Assembly: GCA_026195895.1 (NCBI GenBank) | Contig: JAPHRO010000015.1 | Location: forward strand, 62,001 to 126,000 | Source: Gammaproteobacteria bacterium | Lineage (GTDB): Bacteria > Pseudomonadota > Gammaproteobacteria > SZUA-229 | Reading direction: 5' to 3' | Length of the DNA stretch: 64,000 bases | In this document: piece after piece, positions 4,951 through 18,903 of the stretch | Numbering within the stretch: the stretch's first letter is position 1 | Layout: each line of letters starts with the position of its first letter | Program-made: the position numbers and the translations under genes | Notes under the pieces: model-generated | Told to the model about the DNA's origin: nothing | Database searches by the model: none | Seen by the model: only the letters and a program-made list of their open reading frames with translations

Positions 4951-6843
4951 TTACTGTTTTGGGGGTTCTGCCTGATCCAGCGTGATGGTTTCTGGCAATT
5001 TGTTCAGGTCGACTAACGTAGGCACGCCACGGATAAACTGTGCCCACAGCAATTCACGATGCAGGCGTTTAAACGGATCGAGATACAGGTTGCCCGTCTG
5101 GCCGGAAAAACGTTCATAGGATTTTGCCTGCAGGCGGCCCATAAACGGAATCAGATTATAGGCATCGGTACCCAGTGCAAAAAACCGCGTATAGCGTTCC
5201 TGTTCAGGCCAGTAATTGATGAGCGATTGTTTCAGGCGATTCGGTGGGCTGAGAATCCAGGGCATGTCGCAGTAATACAGTTCATCTATATCGCGGTCAG
5301 CCTGGCTGTCTAATTTGCCGGTGTAGGCATGGGAAGTGGCAAATACCGGTAGTTCGCCCGCATAGTGGAATTTGAACTGGGGTTTTAGCTGACGTGCATC
5401 TTTGGGTGTAGCGGCAATGAAAATCATGTCCACATCCTGGCGACGATAGGGGGTAAACTTCAGATCTGTTTTTAGCAGGTTTTTCAGTTTGCGGTGCCGA
5501 GCGTGACTCTGGCTAATATTCAGCAGGCTCTGGATAGGGCGTTTGAAATCATTTGTACCCGGGGTGTAGGTTTGCCTGTTGATAACCGTGCCGCCCAGTT
5601 CTTCAAAGCGCTGTTGAAATGCGGTGCTCAGGCGCTGTCCCCAGGTGCCTTCAGGAACCAGCACGGCGGCGTGGATATTACCCTGGCGGTAGGCCATTTC
5701 AGCGGATTGTCGCGCTTCATCTTCCGGCAGCAGGCCAAACTGGAACAGGTTCTGGGTCATGCTGTCCTGTTCGCTGGCATAGTTTAAGGTCAGGGTTGGC
5801 AGCTCCAGCCGGGTGGAGCGTGACAAGCTGTTGACCGCAGATTTCATAAACGGACCCACAATAAAATCGGCGCCATCGTCAACCGCCTGTCGATAATGAT
5901 TCCAGATGGCGGTGGGATTGTTGCTGGTGTCGATAAAGCTGATTTTAGGGCGTAGTGTTTTGTCCGGATGCTGGTAATAGGCCGCCATAAAGCCATCGCG
6001 AATGGCGCTCGCAACCTGGCTATACTGGCCCGAAAATGGCAGCAGTACGGCGATGTGGCCTGGGCGATCCATGAGTTCGATCTGTTTACTGCCCAGTTCC
6101 TGAATAAATATTTTGGCAGCGGGATGTTCCGGGTAGCGTTTGCGCCAGTTGTAAATGCCATCCTGCAGGTGTTGCCAGTCAATCTGCCCCCGTTTGGCAA
6201 CCTTGGCCAGTTCTACCCAGCCCAGAAATTCTACATGCAGGGGTGCCAGACTTAGCTGGTTAAGGGTGGTTTCGGGCAACAGTGACAGGGCTTCCCAGAT
6301 GGCCTGATGATTGCGTTGGGAATCGAATTCATCGCTAATCAGCTTGTCTAGCTGGACGCGGGTTTTGGCGGATTCCAGTGGATAGCCGGCATCCAGAAAA
6401 GCGCGCGCCCGAATTTCGTAAACCTGCATCTGGAGCTGCGGCGGCAGAATGGTGGACAAAGGCAACAGTTTGAGCGCCTGGCGGGGATCACCTTTGCCCA
6501 GGGCGATGTGGGCCGACAGAATCTGCATTTTGCCGAGCACGTCGCTGTCGGTAGTTTCAGCATCTATCCCCTGCAGTTGCATCTGGGCAGCATCAAAGTC
6601 GCCGGTTTCTATATAAAGTTCAGCGGCCCGGATCAGGTGCTGATCTCGCTCGATGCCGAATGTCTGGCTGGCCAGCTCGACAAATTGCCGGGGTGTTTCC
6701 TGGGCAGGCAGGGCATCGGTTGGTGCGGCTGTTACGCCATCATCCGCTGGCGTGGTATCAACGCTTTGGGTAGGAATGCCGGTACAGGCGCTTATGAATA
6801 GTGCAAGGGTAGCGTAGAGCGAAAAGCGATTTATCAGATTCAT
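4951..6843 (-). CDS. lpoA: Outer membrane lipoprotein activator of penicillin-binding protein 1A
   Basis: LpoA reaches from the outer membrane through the peptidoglycan to stimulate the transpeptidase activity of PBP1A. The 630-residue precursor has a lipoprotein signal peptide with lipobox ISAC and Cys20 as the lipidated residue. Residues about 50-270 form a helical TPR-like domain (QHLIRAAELYIETGDFDAAQ and similar). The rest is a periplasmic-binding-protein-like domain starting near GHIAVLLPFSGQYSQVASAI, with VGPFMKSAV and LVPEGTWGQRL. Length and domain order match the family. The gene diverges from rsmI, with about 60 bases between the starts. Confidence 0.93.
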   Translation of the reverse strand: MNLINRFSLYATLALFISACTGIPTQSVDTTPADDGVTAAPTDALPAQETPRQFVELASQTFGIERDQHLIRAAELYIETGDFDAAQMQLQGIDAETTDSDVLGKMQILSAHIALGKGDPRQALKLLPLSTILPPQLQMQVYEIRARAFLDAGYPLESAKTRVQLDKLISDEFDSQRNHQAIWEALSLLPETTLNQLSLAPLHVEFLGWVELAKVAKRGQIDWQHLQDGIYNWRKRYPEHPAAKIFIQELGSKQIELMDRPGHIAVLLPFSGQYSQVASAIRDGFMAAYYQHPDKTLRPKISFIDTSNNPTAIWNHYRQAVDDGADFIVGPFMKSAVNSLSRSTRLELPTLTLNYASEQDSMTQNLFQFGLLPEDEARQSAEMAYRQGNIHAAVLVPEGTWGQRLSTAFQQRFEELGGTVINRQTYTPGTNDFKRPIQSLLNISQSHARHRKLKNLLKTDLKFTPYRRQDVDMIFIAATPKDARQLKPQFKFHYAGELPVFATSHAYTGKLDSQADRDIDELYYCDMPWILSPPNRLKQSLINYWPEQERYTRFFALGTDAYNLIPFMGRLQAKSYERFSGQTGNLYLDPFKRLHRELLWAQFIRGVPTLVDLNKLPETITLDQAEPPKQ

Positions 6844-6905
6844 TATTTAAGGGATGTAAGCTGGTGTTATTATGGCGCCACAAAGTATCTTGTCTGGAGC
6901 TGCGA

Positions 6906-7751
6906 GTGTCAATGAAACATGGCGTACTTTATATTGTTGCGACCCCAATTGGAAATAGATCTGACATGGGGCAGCGGGCCATCGAAATATTATCCGAGGT
7001 TAAGCTAATTGCCGCGGAAGATACACGACATAGTCGACATTTATTACAGCATTTTAATATCGACACCCATATGTGGGCCTACCACGATCACAATGAGCAA
7101 CAGCAAACACCAGTATTGATTGAACGCATGCTGTCCGGCGATGATATTGCGCTGATTTCCGATGCCGGTACGCCACTATTGAGTGACCCGGGGTATCGGC
7201 TGGTAAAGGCGGCCCATGAGGCGGGGATAAAAGTCAGCCCGGTGCCGGGTCCCTGTGCGGCCATCGCAGCGCTATCTGCTTCTGGGCTGGCGACCGATCA
7301 GTTCTGTTTTGCCGGCTTTCCGCCAAATAAGTCCTCGGCGCGCATCGCTTTTTTTGAAGCGCTGACAAAAAGTCGTGCCACCCAGGTATTTTATGAGTCC
7401 AGTCATCGTGTCGCCGCATCCCTAGCGGATATGGTGACTGTGTTTGGCGGAGAGCGCGAAGCGGTGCTGGCGCGTGAAATCAGTAAAACATTTGAAACTA
7501 TTCATAAAGCGACGGTAGCTGAATTGAGTCAATGGGTGCAGGAGGACGAAAATCAGCGCAAGGGCGAGTTTGTTCTGGTGGTGCAGGGCAATACGCAACA
7601 GCAGGCGTCAACTACTGTTGAGCTGGAGCAGATGCTGGCTATTTTAATGGATGAGTTGCCGCTGAAGCAGGCAAGTGGACTGGCGGCAAAGATAACCGGG
7701 CGCAAGAAGAATCAGGTCTATAAGCTGGCGCTTGATTTACAGGCTAAATGA
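6906..7751 (+). CDS. rsmI: 16S rRNA 2'-O-ribose C1402 methyltransferase
   Basis: RsmI methylates the ribose of C1402 in 16S rRNA using S-adenosylmethionine. It has the tetrapyrrole-methylase fold, with LYIVATPIGN near the start, AAEDTRHSRHLL, SDAGTPLLSDPG and FYESSHRV. An ATG in frame exists at 6864, but the GGAG at 6896-6899 sits six bases before GTG 6906, and the resulting N-terminus is close to the conserved core; ATG 6912 is the other choice. The gene diverges from lpoA. In relatives rnpB follows directly, but here about 10 kb of accessory DNA intervenes. Confidence 0.93.
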   Translation: MSMKHGVLYIVATPIGNRSDMGQRAIEILSEVKLIAAEDTRHSRHLLQHFNIDTHMWAYHDHNEQQQTPVLIERMLSGDDIALISDAGTPLLSDPGYRLVKAAHEAGIKVSPVPGPCAAIAALSASGLATDQFCFAGFPPNKSSARIAFFEALTKSRATQVFYESSHRVAASLADMVTVFGGEREAVLAREISKTFETIHKATVAELSQWVQEDENQRKGEFVLVVQGNTQQQASTTVELEQMLAILMDELPLKQASGLAAKITGRKKNQVYKLALDLQAK

Positions 7752-8186: not shown

Positions 8187-8666
8187 ATGGCACCATTGCA
8201 GGCAGTTTATGAAGATTTCAGCTCATGCTGCGACGATTTCGTGGCAGGCGTAGAGCATCTAAAAGAACGCTCTATACCCAGGGCAGTACAAAGCTTTCAG
8301 CAGGCTTATGATTCTGTAGCGCGTGCTGACATATATCACAATAAGTATGAGTCCTATTGTGGATTAGCCCGGGTACTTTCAGGTGATCATAGCGCGATTG
8401 AATTATGTCGAGATGCCGCCAGAAGTGAAATTCATGATGGTGATGTGTTTCTGAATCTGGCACGTGCCGAATGGTTTCTGGATAATCGAAAGAATACAAT
8501 TATTACGCTGAAAAAAGGACTGCAGATAGATAATCGTCATCCAGGTTTGCGTCAGATGCGAGAACAGTTAGGTATCAGGCAGCGTAGCGCGTTACCCTTT
8601 TTGCCACGTAGTCATCCGCTCAATCATGCATTGGGTAAACTAATGCGGCACTATGACCACAAATAG
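8187..8666 (+). CDS. TPR-like protein of an uncharacterised family, paralogue 1
   Basis: A 159-residue soluble protein with no signal peptide or membrane segment, one of three paralogues in this block. I do not recognise a named function. About residues 16-45 (FVAGVEHL, IPRAVQSFQQAYDS) and 70-115 (ELCRDAARS, HDGDVFLNLARAEWF, TLKKGLQIDNRHPGL) look like TPR helix pairs. A very basic tail follows (GIRQRSALPFLPR, GKLMR). A Cys-Cys pair at 14-15 and a Cys in LCRD are kept in all three copies. The start has GGTGGAG eight bases upstream. A strong terminator follows, so the gene is probably monocistronic under the sigma-54-like promoter at 7992. A scaffold or protein-binding role is inference. Confidence 0.85.
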   Translation: MAPLQAVYEDFSSCCDDFVAGVEHLKERSIPRAVQSFQQAYDSVARADIYHNKYESYCGLARVLSGDHSAIELCRDAARSEIHDGDVFLNLARAEWFLDNRKNTIITLKKGLQIDNRHPGLRQMREQLGIRQRSALPFLPRSHPLNHALGKLMRHYDHK

Positions 8667-8723
8667 TAATACTAATAAAGAAGTGGGAGGATACCTGCAA
8701 TATAATAATCATTAGCGTGGTTG

Positions 8724-8754
8724 GCCACAGAGGTAAACTCTGTGGCTTTTTTTT
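8724..8754 (+). terminator. Intrinsic terminator after TPR-like paralogue 1
   Basis: A perfect 9-bp stem (GCCACAGAG at 8724-8732 with CTCTGTGGC at 8738-8746) around GTAAA is followed by eight T residues (8747-8754). This is a textbook Rho-independent terminator. Confidence 0.92.
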
Positions 8755-8819
8755 CACGCAATTATTATCTGAAAGTTTGTTTCAGTTTTTAACAGGATAG
8801 CAGGAAAGAGGAATTCACG

Positions 8820-9296
8820 GTGTCGTTAAAAGAAGTTACTTATCAGGATTACAGCGCCTGTTGTGCTGATTTTATTAATGGAATTGAGTGCATTCGCTGG
8901 AACCTGATTCCACAGGCAGTCAAGAGCTTTCAGCTCGCTTATGAATCCGTTGGTCAATACGATATATATCATAACAAGTATGCCTCTTTCTGTGGCTATG
9001 CCCGAGTTCTAAACAATGATCGCGGAGGGCTTGAATTATGCCGGGATGTGGCACGCAATGAAATCCATGACGGCGATGTGTTGCTGAATCTGGCACGTGT
9101 GGAATGGCATTACCGAAATCGTAAAAAAGCCGTAATGGCCCTGCAACAGGGTTTGAAAATCGATAACCGGCATCCCGGTCTTGGCAGAATGCGAGAGAAA
9201 ATAGGCTATCGTTCACGCCAGCCGTTGTCTTTTTTGCCCAGGCAGCATTCGTTAAATAACATGATTGGCAAACTGTTTAGAAAAGAAGTCAGTTAA
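8820..9296 (+). CDS. TPR-like protein of an uncharacterised family, paralogue 2
   Basis: A 158-residue protein aligned end to end with paralogue 1, about half of the residues being identical by eye. It starts with GTG, supported by AGAGGA upstream and by alignment of SLKEVTYQDYSACC with the other copies. The same landmarks occur: Cys-Cys at 14-15, YHNKYASFCG, ELCRDVARNEIHDGDV, NLARVEW, IDNRHPGL, LSFLPR and the C-terminal GKLFR. The gene has its own gap after the paralogue 1 terminator, so it needs a separate promoter, which I could not place. Function unknown. The tight conservation of HDGDV and NLAR argues that both copies are functional. Confidence 0.85.
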   Translation: MSLKEVTYQDYSACCADFINGIECIRWNLIPQAVKSFQLAYESVGQYDIYHNKYASFCGYARVLNNDRGGLELCRDVARNEIHDGDVLLNLARVEWHYRNRKKAVMALQQGLKIDNRHPGLGRMREKIGYRSRQPLSFLPRQHSLNNMIGKLFRKEVS

Positions 9297-9423
9297 ACCC
9301 ATTCAAATCATCATAAATCAACTAAAAATGGAATAATTACAGCTTTCTGTGCATCTGGATATAAGGCGGTATCAGGTTCTGTGGAAATTAGTGCTGCTAG
9401 TAAGTGATATCAATCCAGAATAG

Positions 9424-10041
9424 CAACAGGAGATCAATCTGTTTGCCAGTGTAAATATCAATCATCTTAAAAAATTGCATTCAAAAAATATACTGGATAA
9501 GTATATTATTTATACCCATAACAAGCTTGAGCTAATGGTTGCCAAAGGTAATCCTGAAAATATAACCAGCGCTATGGATCTGGCTCGTGACGACCTTGTT
9601 CAGTCTCACCCTAATCCTTTAACCGAAGGGATATTTAAATTTTATGGCAGTGGAATGCTTAAGGATCTGGGTATATATGAGCAGGTAACAGCGGATAAGA
9701 TGTGTAAACAGTGTTGGGCAAAGCCTGGCAAGACATGGTTTACCGCTCGCCATCATCGCGAGACACCCCATCGTATTGAAAATAACCAGGCGGACGTTGG
9801 TATTGTCTGGACCACGGAGGTGGCGTATGCAAAAGCAGAAGGTCGTAAATGTCGCCATCAAGGCGCCGCTTAATAAGCAGGACAAGGTGGCTTATGCAAT
9901 CGGCGAGCTGAATCAAGGCAGGAATAAAATAATGCACGGCTGTTTCTTGAATACCTGGCGACAGCCAAAGCACAAACTATTTATCAGCACTATGGATTCG
10001 TTCCAGCTACTCCCGCTGAATTGGTAATTAAAAGTTTTTAA
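9424..10041 (+). pseudogene. Decayed periplasmic substrate-binding protein gene (ModA-like / SBP_bac_11 type)
   Basis: Pieces of a periplasmic binding protein are spread over two frames. Frame 1 gives LFASVNINHLKKL, NKLELMVAKGNPENI, the ARHHRETPHRI segment and NNQADVGIVWTTEV, then shifts near 9845. Frame 2 continues as VVNVAIKAPLNKQDKVAYAIGELNQG, and near 9930 the reading returns to frame 1 with LFLEYLATAKAQTIYQHYGFVPA to a TAA at 10039. The N-terminal third is missing; faint remains may extend back to about 9340. ModA-like proteins bind molybdate or related anions, but the ligand here cannot be deduced. The two frame shifts and lost start mean it is not expressed as a working protein, unless they are sequencing errors. 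Confidence 0.72.
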
Positions 10042-10061
10042 TAGATATAAGCCTGATATGG

Positions 10062-10094
10062 AAAAAACGATGTCATGGAAGGTGTCGTTTTTTT
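10062..10094 (+). terminator. Intrinsic terminator after the pseudogene
   Basis: AAAAAACGA (10062-10070) pairs with TCGTTTTTT (10085-10093). In RNA the stem extends inward through U-G, G-U, U-G and C-G pairs to a six-base loop, and the 3' arm forms a T-run. It isolates the pseudogene from the third TPR-like gene. Confidence 0.65.
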
Positions 10095-10217
10095 GTCTTG
10101 TTTTCAGGTGTCTAACATGATAAAAAATGGAATTGTAAATTTGTAGCAGGTATAGAAATATCTGAAAAGTGAGCAACCGGATTTGCTCTTGATAATTCGA
10201 AAAGGAGGTCGAAGACT

Positions 10218-10694
10218 ATGTCTTATTTAAAGGCAAGTTATACCGATCACAGTTCATGCTGTGTGGAATTCATTGATGGTATTCAATATCTTGAAAATCG
10301 CCTGATTCACGAAGCGGTTTATAGCTTTAAAAAAGCCTGTGACTCAGCAGGCAAGCATGATCTTAATTTAAATAAATATAAATCCTATTATGGCTTTTCT
10401 CGATTTCTTAAAGGCGATCCAGATGGCCTTAGATTATGTCGAGATGTAACTGTTTCTGCATGTCATGATGGCGATGTGTTTTTTAATCTGGCCAGAGCGG
10501 AATATTTCAATGAAAATAGAAAGCAAATGGTGCTGGCCTTAATTAAAGGTCGTCAGATTGATCGGCAACATGAGGGTTTAAAGCTATTGCAGCAGCAGGT
10601 TGGTGTTAGAAAGCGAAAGCCGCTGCCGTTTTTACCAAGAGAGAATATGTTAAGCGATATGGTTGGTAAATGTTTACGCAATACCAGGCGTTAG
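10218..10694 (+). CDS. TPR-like protein of an uncharacterised family, paralogue 3
   Basis: A 158-residue member of the same family, more diverged than copies 1 and 2. It keeps the Cys-Cys pair at 14-15, AVYSFKKACDS, NKYKSYYG, LRLCRD, the HDGDVFFNLARAE stretch, RKQMVLALIKGRQID, LPFLPR and the terminal GKCLR. The start is well supported by a strong AAGGAGGT ribosome binding site nine bases upstream. A weak hairpin overlapping the stop (10690-10706) with T7 may end transcription. Function is unknown. The family-wide pattern of a TPR core and a basic tail suggests binding to a protein or nucleic acid partner, which is inference. Confidence 0.85.
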   Translation: MSYLKASYTDHSSCCVEFIDGIQYLENRLIHEAVYSFKKACDSAGKHDLNLNKYKSYYGFSRFLKGDPDGLRLCRDVTVSACHDGDVFFNLARAEYFNENRKQMVLALIKGRQIDRQHEGLKLLQQQVGVRKRKPLPFLPRENMLSDMVGKCLRNTRR

Positions 10695-11010
10695 CTATTG
10701 TCTGACTTTTTTTGTTTTGCAGCATTTGTGTTTTTTCTGTTATCGCTGAAAATAAATTTACCCGCAAGTACGCAGCCTTTCATGCCAGGATCGCATGTCT
10801 GGTTTTCGACACGTTGGCATTTACCGCTGGAATCATGGGGGCAGCCCCAGCCGCTACTCATGATGGATCTCCCGATATTAGTGAAATTACAGATGTTAAA
10901 TTATATCAAAATGTAAAAACTAGTCAGCTATTCAGTAATTAGATATTTGTCAGGTAAGTATTTTTAACTTGATGCATGTCAACTGGTCATCAATATAAAG
11001 CGAATACTCT
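10695..11010 (+). other. Intergenic region with possible gene remnant and weak promoter
   Basis: A 316-base gap. Open frames of about 70-75 codons over 10698-10942 in two overlapping registers match nothing I recognise and lack a good ribosome site; they may be remnants. TTGATG at 10969-10974 and TATAAA at 10994-10999 could form a promoter for the dioxygenase gene, but the 19-base spacer is long. Confidence 0.35.
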
Positions 11011-11943
11011 GTGCGTCCTTTCTGGTTGCGGATGTTGCCTGTGTTTGCCCCATTTAATATTGATAGCGATAAAGATTACCTGATCTGGCGAGAACAAAAA
11101 CTGGCGGGATATCCTGAAAAGCTCGAAGATTTAGTGGTGGAAATAAATAATCCAAAAAGGTTAAGCTCGGCAGAACATTTGGCCATGCATGAGCTATGCG
11201 CTAAAACCAATATGGTCATATATGCCGGGCAGTTAACAGGAGCGGATAAGGAAATACCCATTATTATGGGTGAGCAATTTGGCCTGCTGCGTTTAAATAA
11301 TAACTGGCTGGCGGATGAAGATGCAGTAACTTCATTGACAGTGAATAATGAAGGGGATCATGCGCAGTATATTCCCTATACGAATCGTCCAATAAAATGG
11401 CATACCGACGGATATTATAATAGTGCGAATCAGCAAATATGGGGTTTGTTGTTGCATTGTGTTCAGTCGGCGCAGGAAGGTGGTGAGAACCAGTTACTGG
11501 ATCATGAAATAGCCTATATATATCTGCGCGATGAAAATCCTGACTATATCCGCGTTTTTATGGAAGCTGATGTTATGACAATCCCGGAAAGAATGGATGC
11601 GAACGGTGGCGTGGCTCGAACAGCGGAGGCGGGACCAGTATTTTCAATTCATCCTGAAACGGGGAATTTGCATATGCGATATACCGCGCGCTCCCGCAGC
11701 ATTGTCTGGAAAGATACGCCACTGGTCAAACAGGCAGTTAGCTATCTTGTCGAACTGCTGGGGTCTGATCTACCCTATATTTTCAAAGGTATTTTACAGC
11801 CCGGTATGGGGCTGGTGAGCAATAATGTGCTGCATGACCGGTCTGGCTTTAATGATAAGGATGCCAGTCAACGACTGCTGTATAGAGCAAGGTACTTTGA
11901 TCGTATTTTTGGCACCGGGGTTAGAGAGCTCTATCGTAGGTAA
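11011..11943 (+). CDS. TauD/TfdA-like Fe(II)/2-oxoglutarate-dependent dioxygenase
   Basis: A 310-residue protein with the marks of the TauD family, which hydroxylate small molecules using Fe(II), oxygen and 2-oxoglutarate. The iron-binding pair HxD is seen in IKWHTDGYYN, the distal histidine in NNVLHDRSGF, and the 2-oxoglutarate-binding arginine probably in LLYRARYFDRI. The GVARTAEAGPVFSIHPETG region is typical of the double-stranded beta-helix fold. GTG at 11011 is the first start and ATG at 11032 is equally plausible; neither has a clear ribosome site. It stands alone, with gaps of about 300 bases on both sides. The substrate is unknown. Confidence 0.75.
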   Translation: MRPFWLRMLPVFAPFNIDSDKDYLIWREQKLAGYPEKLEDLVVEINNPKRLSSAEHLAMHELCAKTNMVIYAGQLTGADKEIPIIMGEQFGLLRLNNNWLADEDAVTSLTVNNEGDHAQYIPYTNRPIKWHTDGYYNSANQQIWGLLLHCVQSAQEGGENQLLDHEIAYIYLRDENPDYIRVFMEADVMTIPERMDANGGVARTAEAGPVFSIHPETGNLHMRYTARSRSIVWKDTPLVKQAVSYLVELLGSDLPYIFKGILQPGMGLVSNNVLHDRSGFNDKDASQRLLYRARYFDRIFGTGVRELYRR

Positions 11944-12246: not shown

Positions 12247-15200
12247 ATGAGCGAAGTGTTTCAAAATAGAAAATCTACATTAACACTGATAATTGTGCTC
12301 AGTTTATTTCTTCTTGTTATCGATGCTTTTGTTTATTTTCACCAGCAGAATTACCTGCATCAGCGCTTGCAGGAACATTTTGAAGATCAGGTTGCGCTCT
12401 TTTTTGAGTTAGGGCATAAATCATTTGTCAATGATGATCACACGGCCATCAAAAATATCCTTGATCTATGGAACAGTGATGAACCGGAAATTTTTGCGGT
12501 TAGAGTTTCTGCAGAGAACGGTGCTGTAATTGCAGAGAATGCAAATGAAAGACCGGTGGATTACTCAAAAGCATATCGTACTAAACGGCAGTATGATGAA
12601 TCTACAGTTATATTCTTTGATCTGGTTGCTGATTATTCTGAAATAAATAGTGAGATGTTAAAGCTTTTAATAAGGCTTTTGGGTTTTTCTATTCTGCTGG
12701 TCGGCATTATGTCGTATCTACTTCACCGGCTGGCAATTATCCCTATTGTCAGTGAAAGCAAAGGTCGTTTCGCTTCATTCGTGGACAACCTCCCTGTCGT
12801 TATTTATATGAAAAATTTGCAGGGCCAGTACATTTTATCGAATAAATATCTTAATCAACAACTTGATCTTGCGAATAGTCAGGTGCTTGGTAAAACAGAT
12901 AAAGATATCTTCAAGGAAGATTTCGCTCAAAAAATAATGCAGGATGACAAACTTGTCCTGGCTGAGAAAAGAGCTATGGAGTTTGAAGATTATTTGTTAG
13001 ACGAAACAAATGACTTAATATTTTATACAACAAAATTCCCTATTGTCTCAAAGCATGGCGACATTGAGGCTATTGGCGGAATATCAGTTGATATTACAGC
13101 TTATAAAAAAGCTTCAGAAAAACTGGTAAAAATTAGCCGGGCATTAAAAGTTCTTTCCGAAGTAGATGCTTCGATGATTCACACATGTAATGAGCGGCAG
13201 TGGCTCAATGATGTGTGTCAGTATCTGGTTGATATTGGCGGCTACAGGTTTGCGTGGATCGGTCTTGCCCAGGAAGGGAATGCGAAAAGTATTTTGCCTG
13301 TTGCTGATGCGGGGTATGAAGATGGTTATTTGTCTACTCTAAATTTGACATGGTCCGATACTGTTCGGGGCCAGGGTCCTGCGGGCACTGCGGTCAGAGA
13401 AAAAATAGCCTGTGTAATTTCGAATACGCAAATAGATCCTCGCTTTGAGCCATGGAGAGATGATGCTTTGAAGAGGGGCTATAACTCTGTGTGCAGCGTA
13501 CCCATTGTTATAGGCGACAGTATGGGTTTATTGTCGCTGTATTCATCTGAGCATGATGCGTTTGATAGTGAAGAAATTAATTTGATTGAAGATATTGCTG
13601 AGGATATAGGCTTCGGTATATTGAATTTTAGAACTCGAGCTGAGAATAAAAAAACACAGGATGCATTGTCATCGGAAAAACAAAAATTTGAACAAATCGT
13701 CGAAGGTATTGATGCCGGTGTTATATTGCTTAATTCCGAGTTAAGAATTATCTGGGCCAATACTACATTTCAGTCATGGTTTGGCTCACTGGACAGTATA
13801 AAAGGTAATCATTGTTATTCTGTTTTTGGCTATGCAGATAAGACTGACAATTGTTCAACCTGTGTGGCGGAAAAAACGCAACAAGTTGAAAAAGTAGTTG
13901 TAGCTATAAAAATGCCTGATGGTATTGAAAAGTATTTTGAGCTGGTCACTGCGCCGCTTTTTGAGAATGATCGCATTATTCAATATGTACAAATGGTTCT
14001 AGATGTAACCGAGCGTAAGGTGCTTGAGAATAAACGTATAGAAATAGAACAAAGATTAAATGAAGCACAGCATATTGCGAAATTAGGTAGTTGGCAGCTA
14101 GATATAAAAAACAACAAATTTAGCTGGTCTGACGAAGTATTTAATATCTTCGAATTAGATCCCAAAGCATCGGAGGCCACTTACGATACATTTTTTAATG
14201 TAGTGCATCCCGATGAAAGAGAGAAGGTGAAAAAAGCATATAGAGAATCTCTGCTTAGTAAGCAGCCCTATGAGATAGTACATAGGGTTCTGCTGGGTGG
14301 AGGAGAAATAAAATTTGTTCATGAGCGATGCGAAACGAGTTTTGATGAGCAAGGTGAGCCTCTAATATCAATTGGTACTATTCAGGATATAACAGATCAG
14401 GTTCAGGTTGAGCAGGCGCTGAATGAGAGTCAGGATCATTATCGCCGTTTAATAGAATCTACTACAGCCATACCCTGGGAAATGGACTTAAAAGCAAACA
14501 GGTTTATTTTTGTCGGTCCGCAGGCAGTTAAAGTGCTTGGATACAAGGTGGCTGACTGGTACCAGGAAAATTTTTGGCAAGATCATATTCATCCCGATGA
14601 TAAAAATGAAACGATTAAAGCATTTGAGGCTGCAACCCAAAGCGGTATAGATCATGAATTCGAATATCGAATAATATCTTCAGATGGTCGTGTAGTGTGG
14701 GTTCATGATAACGTTAAAGTTGTCAAAGAAAATGATGTGCCCATACGTTTGCAGGGTTTTATGTTTGACGTGACAGATCGACGACATGCAGAAGAGGTTT
14801 TGCGTCGCACGCAAAAAATGGATGCTGTTGGAAAGTTGACTGGTGGTATTGCACATGATTTCAATAACCAGTTAGGCGTTGTCCAGGGATACCTGGATTT
14901 TCTTGATGCTTATACTGAGAATTCTGAAAAGCCTCATCGCTGGGTTATGTCTGCTTCTCGAGCGACCCGACGTTGTATCGATTTATCTAAAAGATTACTC
15001 AATTTCTCCCGCCAGCAACAGATTGAAGCGGAGCCAGTAAATATAAATCAGGCACTGGAGAAAATGCATGAACTGATAGCTCGTTCATTAACGCCCAGGA
15101 TAGAGGTTAAATATGATCTCGATCAGAAGTTGTGGCCGGTTAATATAAATCCAGGAGAACTGGAAGATGTTTTTCTAAACCTGGCAATAAATTCTCGTGA

Positions 15201-17655
15201 TGCAATGCCAGCCGGCGGTTGCTTCTCCATCCGAACTAAAAATCATAGTTTGAGGGATGACGAGGGTTTAATAATATCGGGTATGGAGCCCGGTGATTAT
15301 ATTGAAATTCGTATTACAGATACGGGTACTGGTATCAAACAGGAAAATCTTGATCGAGTATTTGAACCATTCTTTACTACTAAAGAAGAAGGTAAGGGAA
15401 CGGGGCTTGGGCTTTCGATGGTTTATAGTTTTGTACAGCGTGCAAATGGCGTTATTCATATGGATTCAGGCGCGGGGGAGGGAACCTCGTTTTATATTTA
15501 TTTGCCAAGATTATTACAGGACTCAGACGCTGTCGAAGTGGTTTCAAAAGATGAAAGTGTTATATCGGTATCGGGCAAAGGTGAAATTATTCTGGTTGTT
15601 GATGACGAAGATGAATTGCGAAATCTCGCTGTGGTTTTCCTTGAAATGTTTGGCTATAAAACCCTGGAGGCTGGAAACGCAGCACAGGCAATGAATATAC
15701 TCACATCGGATGCCCGAGTCGATTTACTGTTCACTGATATTATTATGCCGGGTGGTACCAATGGCTATGAGTTGGCAGAAAAGGCCAGGGGAATACGTCC
15801 AGATATAAAGGTGTTGCTAACATCAGGGTTTACTGGCGATATATCTCAGTATCAAAGATCTACAGATGTTCTGCTTAATAAGCCGTATAGTAAACAGGAA
15901 TTGTTACAGCATATAAATGATGTGCTTGTTTTTAATGATGATGCTGAAAAAGATGAGCAAGTTATAGATGAGCAAGTTAAAGAGCAGGAAACTGCGCAAA
16001 CAGATGTATTTGAATGGGATATAAATCTAAGTACTGGTCATGAAGTTATTGATAAGGATCATCAGTATTTATTTAAATTATTGCAGGATTATTCCGTGGC
16101 TCTTGATAATCATACGATCAATCAAAAAGCGCCAGAAATTTTCGACGAACTAATAAATTATACTGATTATCATTTTGCCAGAGAGGAGGCATTAATGCAG
16201 GCCTGTGATTATCCGCATTATGAAAATCATCGGCAGGTGCATAAAATGCTGGTAACCATGGTTAATGACCTGGTAAAAGTTTATCGTCAGGATGTAGATG
16301 TTTTTGATCATAATTCAACAGTTAGATTTTTAAAGCACTGGTTAACGGGGCATATATTAGGAATGGACAAGGCCTACGTTGAATATATTCAGGGGAATGA
16401 ATTGCAAATAGAGCAGGCAATAGCTGAAGTGAGTGGTGCTGAAAATATAGATAAGCCGCAAACAGAAAAAATAAAACTTGCAGTAGTTGATGATGAAATA
16501 AGTATGGGTGAATTTGTTTGTGATGTGGCAGAAAGCTGTGATTTTAATACTGTGAATTACACCCATGCGGCAGATTTCATTGCGCATCATGATGATGAAT
16601 TTAATGTGATAGTGCTTGATTTGCTAATGCCCGATTTTGACGGTATTGAAATGATTCGATTGCTGGCGGGTATGGATAGTGGCGCAGCGTTGATATTGAT
16701 TTCTGGTGTTGATGAAAGCGTATTGCATTCAGCGCAGGAATTGGCTCATGAGCATGGTTTAAATATAGCCGGCACGTTGCAGAAACCCTTCCATGCCCAT
16801 GAATTGAAAAAACTGCTGGAGGTAGTGAGGGCTAAAGTCAAAAAAGAAAAGCCAGTAGTGGTGACTTCAAGTTCAGTAGAGAATGCAGAGTTTGAAATTG
16901 CCGACTTGCAGGAGGCGCTTCATTTGCATCAGTTCATTGGTTATTTTCAGCCACAAATATCAATTGCTACCCATCAGGTTATTGGTTTTGAAGTGCTCAT
17001 GCGCTGGAATCATCCTGAACAGGGTTTGATTCCACCATTTAGATTTATTCCTCTGGCAGAATCGTCAGGACTGATTGATGAAATGACATGGCAGTTGTTG
17101 GAGCAGGTCACCAGGGAGTGGCAGGCTCGTCAGCTAGAGCAGACGATTTCAGTGAATATGACTGCAGGTATGTTTAAGACACTTGATTTGCCGGAAAAAC
17201 TTCATGCGATCGGAGAAAAAAATGGTTTCACTGATTCATCTCGGTTGATGCTGGAAGTAACAGAATCGGCGTTGATGGAGGAGTTGACCAAATCACTGGA
17301 CAGTCTCACCCGCTTACGAATGAAAGGCTTTAAATTATCTATTGATGATTTCGGTACCGGTTATTCTTCCATGATTCAGCTATATAGAGCGCCATTTTCC
17401 GAGCTTAAAGTAGATCAGTCGTTTGTTATGCGAATGGAGAAAGAATCTGAAGCGCGGGCTATTGTTGAGTCGACGATTGATCTGGGCCACAACTTAAACA
17501 TGAAAGTGGTGGCTGAGGGTGTTGAAAGCGCATCGATTTTGCACAGACTCAGTGAGCTGGGTTGCGATATAGCGCAGGGTTATCATATAGCGAAACCCAT
17601 GCCGATCGAGGCGGTGCCTGGATGGCTGGAAGAGTGGAATGGAAAATACAATTAA
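12247..17655 (+). CDS. Giant hybrid sensor kinase: PAS-GAF-PAS3-HisKA-HATPase-REC-hemerythrin-REC-EAL
   Basis: An 1802-residue inner membrane signalling protein. Two transmembrane helices (about 13-31 and 140-160) flank a small periplasmic part. Then follow a PAS (about 178-290), a GAF (300-455), three more PAS domains (to about 855), a kinase core with H870 in GGIAHDFNN and an ATPase with DTGTGI and GTGLGLS, and REC1 with phospho-acceptor D1164. The hemerythrin domain (about 1254-1385) has all seven di-iron ligands: H1272, H1309, E1313, H1328, H1332, H1369 and D1374. REC2 has D1458. The EAL domain (from about 1560; E1582 in EVLMRW) keeps [22 protein letters not shown] and AEGVES, so it may degrade c-di-GMP. 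There is no GGDEF domain. Gas or redox input controlling a phosphodiesterase is inference. Confidence 0.9.
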
Positions 17656-17718: not shown

Positions 17719-18085
17719 CGAAGTCGGCCAGGCAATCGCCTGTTGTTTTTACAACGGGAGGAAAGTCCGGGCTCCACAGGGCAGGGTGCCAGGTAACGCC
17801 TGGGAGGCGTGAGCCTACGGCCAGTGCAACAGAAAGTATACCGCCCGATTATCTTCGGATGATCAGGTAAGGGTGAAATGGTGCGGTAAGAGCGCACCGC
17901 GCAACAGGTAACTGTTGTGGCAGGGTAAACCCCACCCGGAGCAAGACCAAATAGAGGAACAAAGGCTCGGCCCGAGCTGTTCCTGGGTAGGTTGCTAGAG
18001 GTGCGCAGCGATGTGCATCCCAGATGAATGATTGCCCCAGTTTCGACTGGACAGAACCCGGCTTATCGGCCGACTTCATTTTTTT
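17719..18085 (+). ncRNA. rnpB: RNase P RNA, bacterial class A
   Basis: The catalytic RNA that trims the 5' leader of tRNA precursors. The conserved core is present: GAGGAAAGTCCGGGCTCC-like sequence at about 17757-17776, the AGGGTGCCAGGTAACGCCTGGG hairpin region, ACAGAAAGTATACCGCC, GGTAAGGGTGAAA, and GCAAGACCAAATAGAGGAACA near 17940-17960. The closing helix P1 is seen as GAAGTCGGCC (17720-17729) with GGCCGACTTC (18068-18077), followed by seven T residues to 18085. The ends are inferred from P1 and may be off by a few bases. The gene normally lies between rsmI and mraZ in relatives. Confidence 0.96.
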
Positions 18086-18444: not shown

Positions 18445-18903
18445 ATGGTATTCCGCGGTATTAACAATCTGGCTCTGGATGCAAAAGGTCGTATGGCCGT
18501 GCCTGCTCGCTATCGCGAAAAGCTGGCGGACTCCTGTGGTGGCCGATTAATTGTTACCGTGGATCGTGATCGTTGCCTGCTGCTTTACCCGCAACATGAA
18601 TGGGAAATTATTGAGGCTCAACTGGCGGCGTTGCCCAGTTTTAATAAACAGGCCAGGCATTTGCAGCGTTTATTGATTGGTCATGCGACCGAAGTGGATC
18701 TGGATTCCCAGGGTCGAATTTTGCTGCCGACTATTTTGCGCGAATATGCCAGTCTGGAGAAAAAATGTGTACTGATTGGCCAGGGTAAAAAATTTGAAAT
18801 CTGGGATGAGCAAAGCTGGAACGAAAATCAGAGTGCCTGGCTTGAAGATGCTAATGCTGAAGAAGGTGAAATGCCGTCAGCGCTGGAAAGTCTCTCTCTG
18901 TAA
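18445..18903 (+). CDS. mraZ: Transcriptional regulator MraZ
   Basis: A 152-residue protein with two AbrB-like halves: [23 protein letters not shown] (about 3-25) and [22 protein letters not shown] (about 75-96), each ending in the DxKGR/DxQGR-type signature. MraZ forms a ring and binds the TGGG repeats upstream of its own gene, acting mainly as a repressor of the division and cell wall cluster. It is the first gene of the cluster, and its stop overlaps the rsmH start (TAATG). Confidence 0.96.

Follow-up and report, generated by a model that had tools for sequence, protein, structure and literature searches.

What are the three related small proteins encoded side by side in this locus, and why do their relatives so often stand beside the RNase P RNA gene? 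In the accepted view, bacterial RNase P consists of one RNA and one protein, and its RNA is the enzyme that trims transfer RNAs. The window, that is, the whole stretch of 64,000 nucleotides analysed here, carries the three genes and, further downstream, the RNase P RNA gene rnpB (Table 1). If the link between the two is functional, the family would be a previously missed partner of a classic ribozyme; if it is not, these loci would be a clear case of an essential RNA gene with its promoter embedded in the coding end of a neighbour. In either case, a motif, a fold, a taxonomic range and the history of the paralogues are now defined for an anonymous protein family, and the linkage to rnpB provides the first testable clue to its function.

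Three genes and the family to which they belong

The three open reading frames that an earlier note on this DNA had described were recovered at the same coordinates and with the same lengths, and their products align end to end with 48–56% identity (copy 1 shares 56% with copy 2 and 48% with copy 3 over the full length). Each gene has its own ribosome-binding site, as had been claimed (GGTGGAG, AGAGGA and AAGGAGG for copies 1, 2 and 3, respectively). Nine terminator-like sites were found against 2.5 expected. The claim that terminators separate the copies held for the strong site after copy 1 and for the weaker hairpin before copy 3, but copies 2 and 3 are additionally parted by a decayed gene for an extracellular solute-binding protein. 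This remnant spans positions 9430–10027, with the PF13531 part in one frame and the remainder apparently in other frames. A search of the genome gave no family copies beyond the three of the array.

Table 1. Features of the array and its surroundings in the window.
Feature	Positions	Strand	Remarks
lpoA-type gene (LppC)	4951..6843	-	conserved upstream neighbour; PF04348 E=5e-112
rsmI	6864..7751	+	directly upstream of array; PF00590 and RsmI_C; same position in several related genera
TPR family copy 1	8187..8666	+	159 aa; orthologue of most conserved paralogue line
Intrinsic terminator after copy 1	8723..8747	+	10-pair stem, 6 GC, T tract; strong
TPR family copy 2	8820..9296	+	158 aa; GTG start
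Solute-binding protein gene remnant, between copies 2 and 3	9475..9873	+	PF13531 SBP_bac_11 E=1e-11, positions 66-172 of 227 only
Terminator-like hairpin before copy 3	10061..10094	+	weaker than the one after copy 1
TPR family copy 3	10218..10694	+	158 aa; most divergent line
Terminator overlapping copy 3 end	10685-10704		
TauD-type dioxygenase gene	11011..11943	+	inserted between array and rnpB; PF02668 E=1e-20
Multidomain sensor protein gene	12247..17655	+	1802 aa; inserted between array and rnpB
rnpB, RNase P RNA class A	17720..18081	+	RF00010, 352 bits
mraZ	18445..18903	+	downstream of rnpB; PF02381 E=2e-40

A profile built from 60 family members matched solved and designed TPR proteins with a best E value of 2e-22. 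AlphaFold, given the 60-member alignment, predicted eight helices (mean pLDDT 89.9, pTM 0.80), arranged as TPR hairpins at residues 16–42, 51–80 and 85–114, a capping helix at 119–128, an extended stretch with the FLPR motif, and a C-terminal helix at 144–156. The top Foldseek matches to this model were all TPR proteins with a probability of 1.00 (best E 2e-3, none at 1e-3), and Pfam TPR_2 matched single members at up to E=2e-6. The proteins thus contain helix-turn-helix repeats in tandem, each about 34 residues long, and carry the TPR signature positions, which bears out the TPR-like fold of the earlier note and places them in the TPR superfamily.

The family is a new one within that superfamily. 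The window proteins fell into no specific Pfam or NCBIfam family, in agreement with the earlier description of them as uncharacterised, and they have no PDB family of their own; the matches listed for scans of 46 and of 60 members were all either to general TPR models or, weakly, to other families. Designed CTPR proteins, HOP TPR1, the YbgF TPR domain and MamA have in common with the family the three helix-turn-helix repeats and the usual small and large residues (G21, A33, F37, G59, A92 and G111), but they do not define C74-R75, S56, N90, E95, R101 or the C-terminal region from R131 to G150-[KR]. HOP TPR1, which was among the fold matches, represents the Hsp70/Hsp90 carboxylate-clamp adaptors, in which five groove residues bind an EEVD-type tail. 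MamA itself was rejected as an identity for the family (best NCBIfam E 3e-5, in 6 of 60 members, with a housekeeping neighbourhood). The type III secretion chaperones SycD, LcrH and IpgC are likewise small stand-alone TPR proteins with a matching fold; however, the SycD/LcrH model matched 4 of the 60 members, and these weakly (best E 7e-4), and the annotated neighbourhoods hold rnpB or housekeeping genes and no type III secretion genes. RnpA, the known bacterial RNase P protein, is small and basic and acts on RNase P RNA, as is proposed below for the TPR family. RnpA has an alpha-beta fold, whereas the predicted structure of the TPR family is all-helical, and no Pfam or NCBIfam RnpA match was obtained with the window proteins. 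No RNA-binding domain was recognised in the family proteins.

Most of the motifs that the earlier note had listed (the Cys pair at 14-15, NKYxS, LCRD, HDGDV-x-x-NLAR, FLPR and GKxxR) are present in all three copies. The GLxID motif had to be reworded as G-x-x-I-D, since copy 3 reads GRQID. Comparison with 60 family members indicated that the Cys pair, NKY and HDGDV are features of the window's own subgroup only. Across the whole family, the conserved positions are S56, G59, C74, R75, N90, E95, R101, G111, R131, R141, N146 and G150, with F37 also among the best conserved, and the arginines at 131 and 141 are invariant in 60 of 60 members. Several of the best-conserved positions of this alignment, assigned by hand, lie outside the TPR signature, which supports the earlier remark on conservation beyond the TPR consensus. 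Most members are basic, with a pI mostly of 8–10; some others come out close to neutral or acidic. In the window's own group, the charge of the C-terminal 45 residues is about +3 to +13, and the basic C-terminal region takes the form R131...F-L-x-R141-x-[HN]-x-L-N146...G150-[KR]. One distant member (L129, 2821-3639) has an N-terminal extension with several Cys and His residues (CEVC...HFCGLDC) that looks zinc-ribbon-like by eye.

The gene was found in 39 of the 54 genomes of the window's order-level set, all from one family-level group. Of 369 genomes sampled from the class, 39 were positive, including a few with weak, incomplete matches. Members of full length came from 17 family-level groups of Gammaproteobacteria, mostly as a single gene per genome, and the organisms named by one scan were uncultured Gammaproteobacteria. 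A wider spread was rejected, as 399 genomes of the phylum, outside the window's own genome, gave just generic TPR matches without the C-terminal region. Examination of 29 further loci of the class for hidden members upstream of rnpB gave only two, both already known.

Position of the family beside rnpB

This gammaproteobacterial family usually lies directly upstream of rnpB and in the same orientation, a linkage that the earlier note had missed. With rnpB placed by an nhmmer profile for which Rfam matches served as anchors, the last family gene ended -30 to 477 nt upstream of it in 44 loci from 11 family-level groups (25 of them from the window's own group, the other 19 from ten more), always on the same strand. 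An apparent "ORF" that kept recurring behind the family gene turned out to be rnpB in antisense. A further group has the family gene 2.8 kb from rnpB, and five of the 17 groups carry it away from rnpB among unrelated neighbours (ppx, msbA, a zinc transporter, MFS). No other RNA gene was detected beside the unlinked members by Rfam or ARAGORN.

The rnpB-linked members are spread across the family tree, and the pair is kept while its surroundings change: upstream stands rsmI, prmA, pgi or glgA, and downstream mraZ, rimO or others. It is unusual for a protein-coding gene to remain next to rnpB when its flanking genes on either side are exchanged, and this persistent same-strand adjacency suggests that the gene and rnpB belong together. 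A link to the ribosome or to translation through the neighbours ABC-F Uup, RimO and PrmA was considered and, beyond rnpB itself, rejected, because the "Uup" cluster was a mixture of ABC ATPases, two of them MsbA-like. Among the non-subscription papers searched, none dealt with an rnpB-linked TPR protein.

In the window itself, copy 3 and rnpB are 7.0 kb apart, with the TauD-type and sensor genes in between. Locus L058, with the same neighbour cluster, likewise has a TauD-type gene between the last copy and rnpB. The sensor gene directly precedes rnpB in the window; in genome G005, where the TPR family is absent, what stands directly before rnpB is likewise the end of a similar sensor protein (L141, 1-1467). 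In genus g12, the nearest upstream gene to rnpB is rsmI. Both g12 and G005 have a normal rnpB and no family gene; therefore, RNase P does not need the protein.

Explanations of the linkage

Two readings of the linkage came out about as likely as each other. According to one, it has no functional meaning: a small TPR adaptor of unrelated function would have landed upstream of rnpB in an ancestor and would have been kept there because the 3' end of the gene, or the stretch immediately behind it, contains the rnpB promoter, so that breaks are selected against. We regard this as a serious possibility, if still short of probable. A -10 box (no fewer than 5 of 6 positions matched, usually between -12 and -14) precedes rnpB in 41 of 46 loci, compared with 9% expected after shuffling. 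This box overlaps the family coding sequence in 7 loci (for example TATATTAG, where TAG is the stop codon), and the predicted -35 element starts inside the family gene in 13. In L127 (6732-7259) and L132 (6199-6705), the stop codon even lies 15–30 nt inside the modelled rnpB, with the rnpB promoter wholly within coding sequence. Such overlap could itself hold the pair together, and the five groups with the gene elsewhere, beside non-RNA neighbours, are also in keeping with an unrelated function; this is why the reading ranks level with a functional one. On the other hand, many linked loci have a gap of 70–300 nt in which the promoter is free of the gene, and the pair has nevertheless stayed together while both its upstream and its downstream neighbours changed.

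In one subgroup, the protein ends in VHSLLY exactly at the promoter site. This tail is retained at gaps of 68–84 nt and is predicted to form an ordered helix; therefore, the embedded promoter was rejected as its sole cause. In L064, L077, L071 and L078, the intergenic rnpB promoter (CTGTTATATT) is similar to the end of the gene in a sister genus (AGTCTGTTATATTAG), a pattern that looks like the outcome of a small duplication separating promoter and coding sequence.

According to the other reading, which is the best-rated functional explanation and which we put forward tentatively, the protein works in RNase P biology or tRNA maturation as a basic-tailed TPR adaptor of the cytoplasm. The linkage to rnpB in 44 loci, maintained across changed neighbours, argues for this role, as do the TPR fold, the purifying selection, the basic C-terminal region and the invariant arginines 131 and 141. 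The protein would be soluble, with a partner bound in its groove of three TPRs, and the basic region at its C-terminus, with the conserved R131, R141, N146, G150 and K151, may contact RNA or another partner. As a dispensable factor of certain lineages, it would act in the process of its neighbour, be it the assembly or stability of RNase P or the maturation of pre-tRNA. We counted against this role the five of 17 groups with the gene away from rnpB, the relatives (g12, G005) that have a normal rnpB but lack the gene, the distance of 7 kb in the window (and synteny is not function), the lack of a recognised RNA-binding domain, and the near-neutral or acidic members. A further-reaching form of the proposal is rather doubtful: in many Gammaproteobacteria, the family would be an accessory protein of bacterial RNase P, specific to certain lineages, or would serve the synthesis and turnover of RNase P RNA; its gene would stand next to that of the ribozyme it assists, and in the lineage of the window it would have given rise to three specialised paralogues.

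The gene might instead act in cis, with transcription or translation through the overlapping or abutting rnpB promoter tuning the synthesis of RNase P RNA and with the protein being secondary. The constant strand is consistent with this, and in five loci of the window's own group the gap is 6 nt, the stop codon overlaps the -10 box (TATATTAG), and there is no room for a terminator. However, it is copy 1, the farthest from rnpB, whose protein is under the strongest purifying selection, and copy 3 under the weakest, so a role in cis is less likely. Moreover, the same motifs are kept in unlinked members, and copy 1 of the window has a strong terminator behind it. Taken together, we consider this explanation unlikely.

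History of the three copies

The earlier note had read the repeated duplication in one locus as a sign of adaptive use. The three copies are instead old paralogue lines under strong purifying selection, and not a recent adaptive expansion. In a maximum-likelihood tree, copies 1, 2 and 3 fell into separate clades (support 99/94, 95/82 and 99/94, respectively), each with members from sister genera, and the order rsmI-1-2-3-rnpB is the same in sister genera wherever three copies are present. Copy 1 is about 71–77% identical to its sister-genus orthologues. Among close orthologues, dN/dS was 0.02–0.06 for line 1, 0.07–0.09 for line 2 and 0.06–0.15 for line 3, with dS near saturation for some pairs, and most members elsewhere are single copies. 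Recent, adaptive duplication is therefore very improbable, its "recent" part being already refuted: the three copies do share one locus and differ by 44–52%, but their old clades, shared order and low dN/dS (0.02–0.15) speak against it. The window lineage would rather have undergone an early split into three paralogues, with copy 1 probably keeping the most constrained role. Genus g5 (L047, L049, L052 and L054) has a fourth paralogue line, which lies away from rnpB as a neighbour of rimO; in L049, its opposite flank is occupied by slyX.
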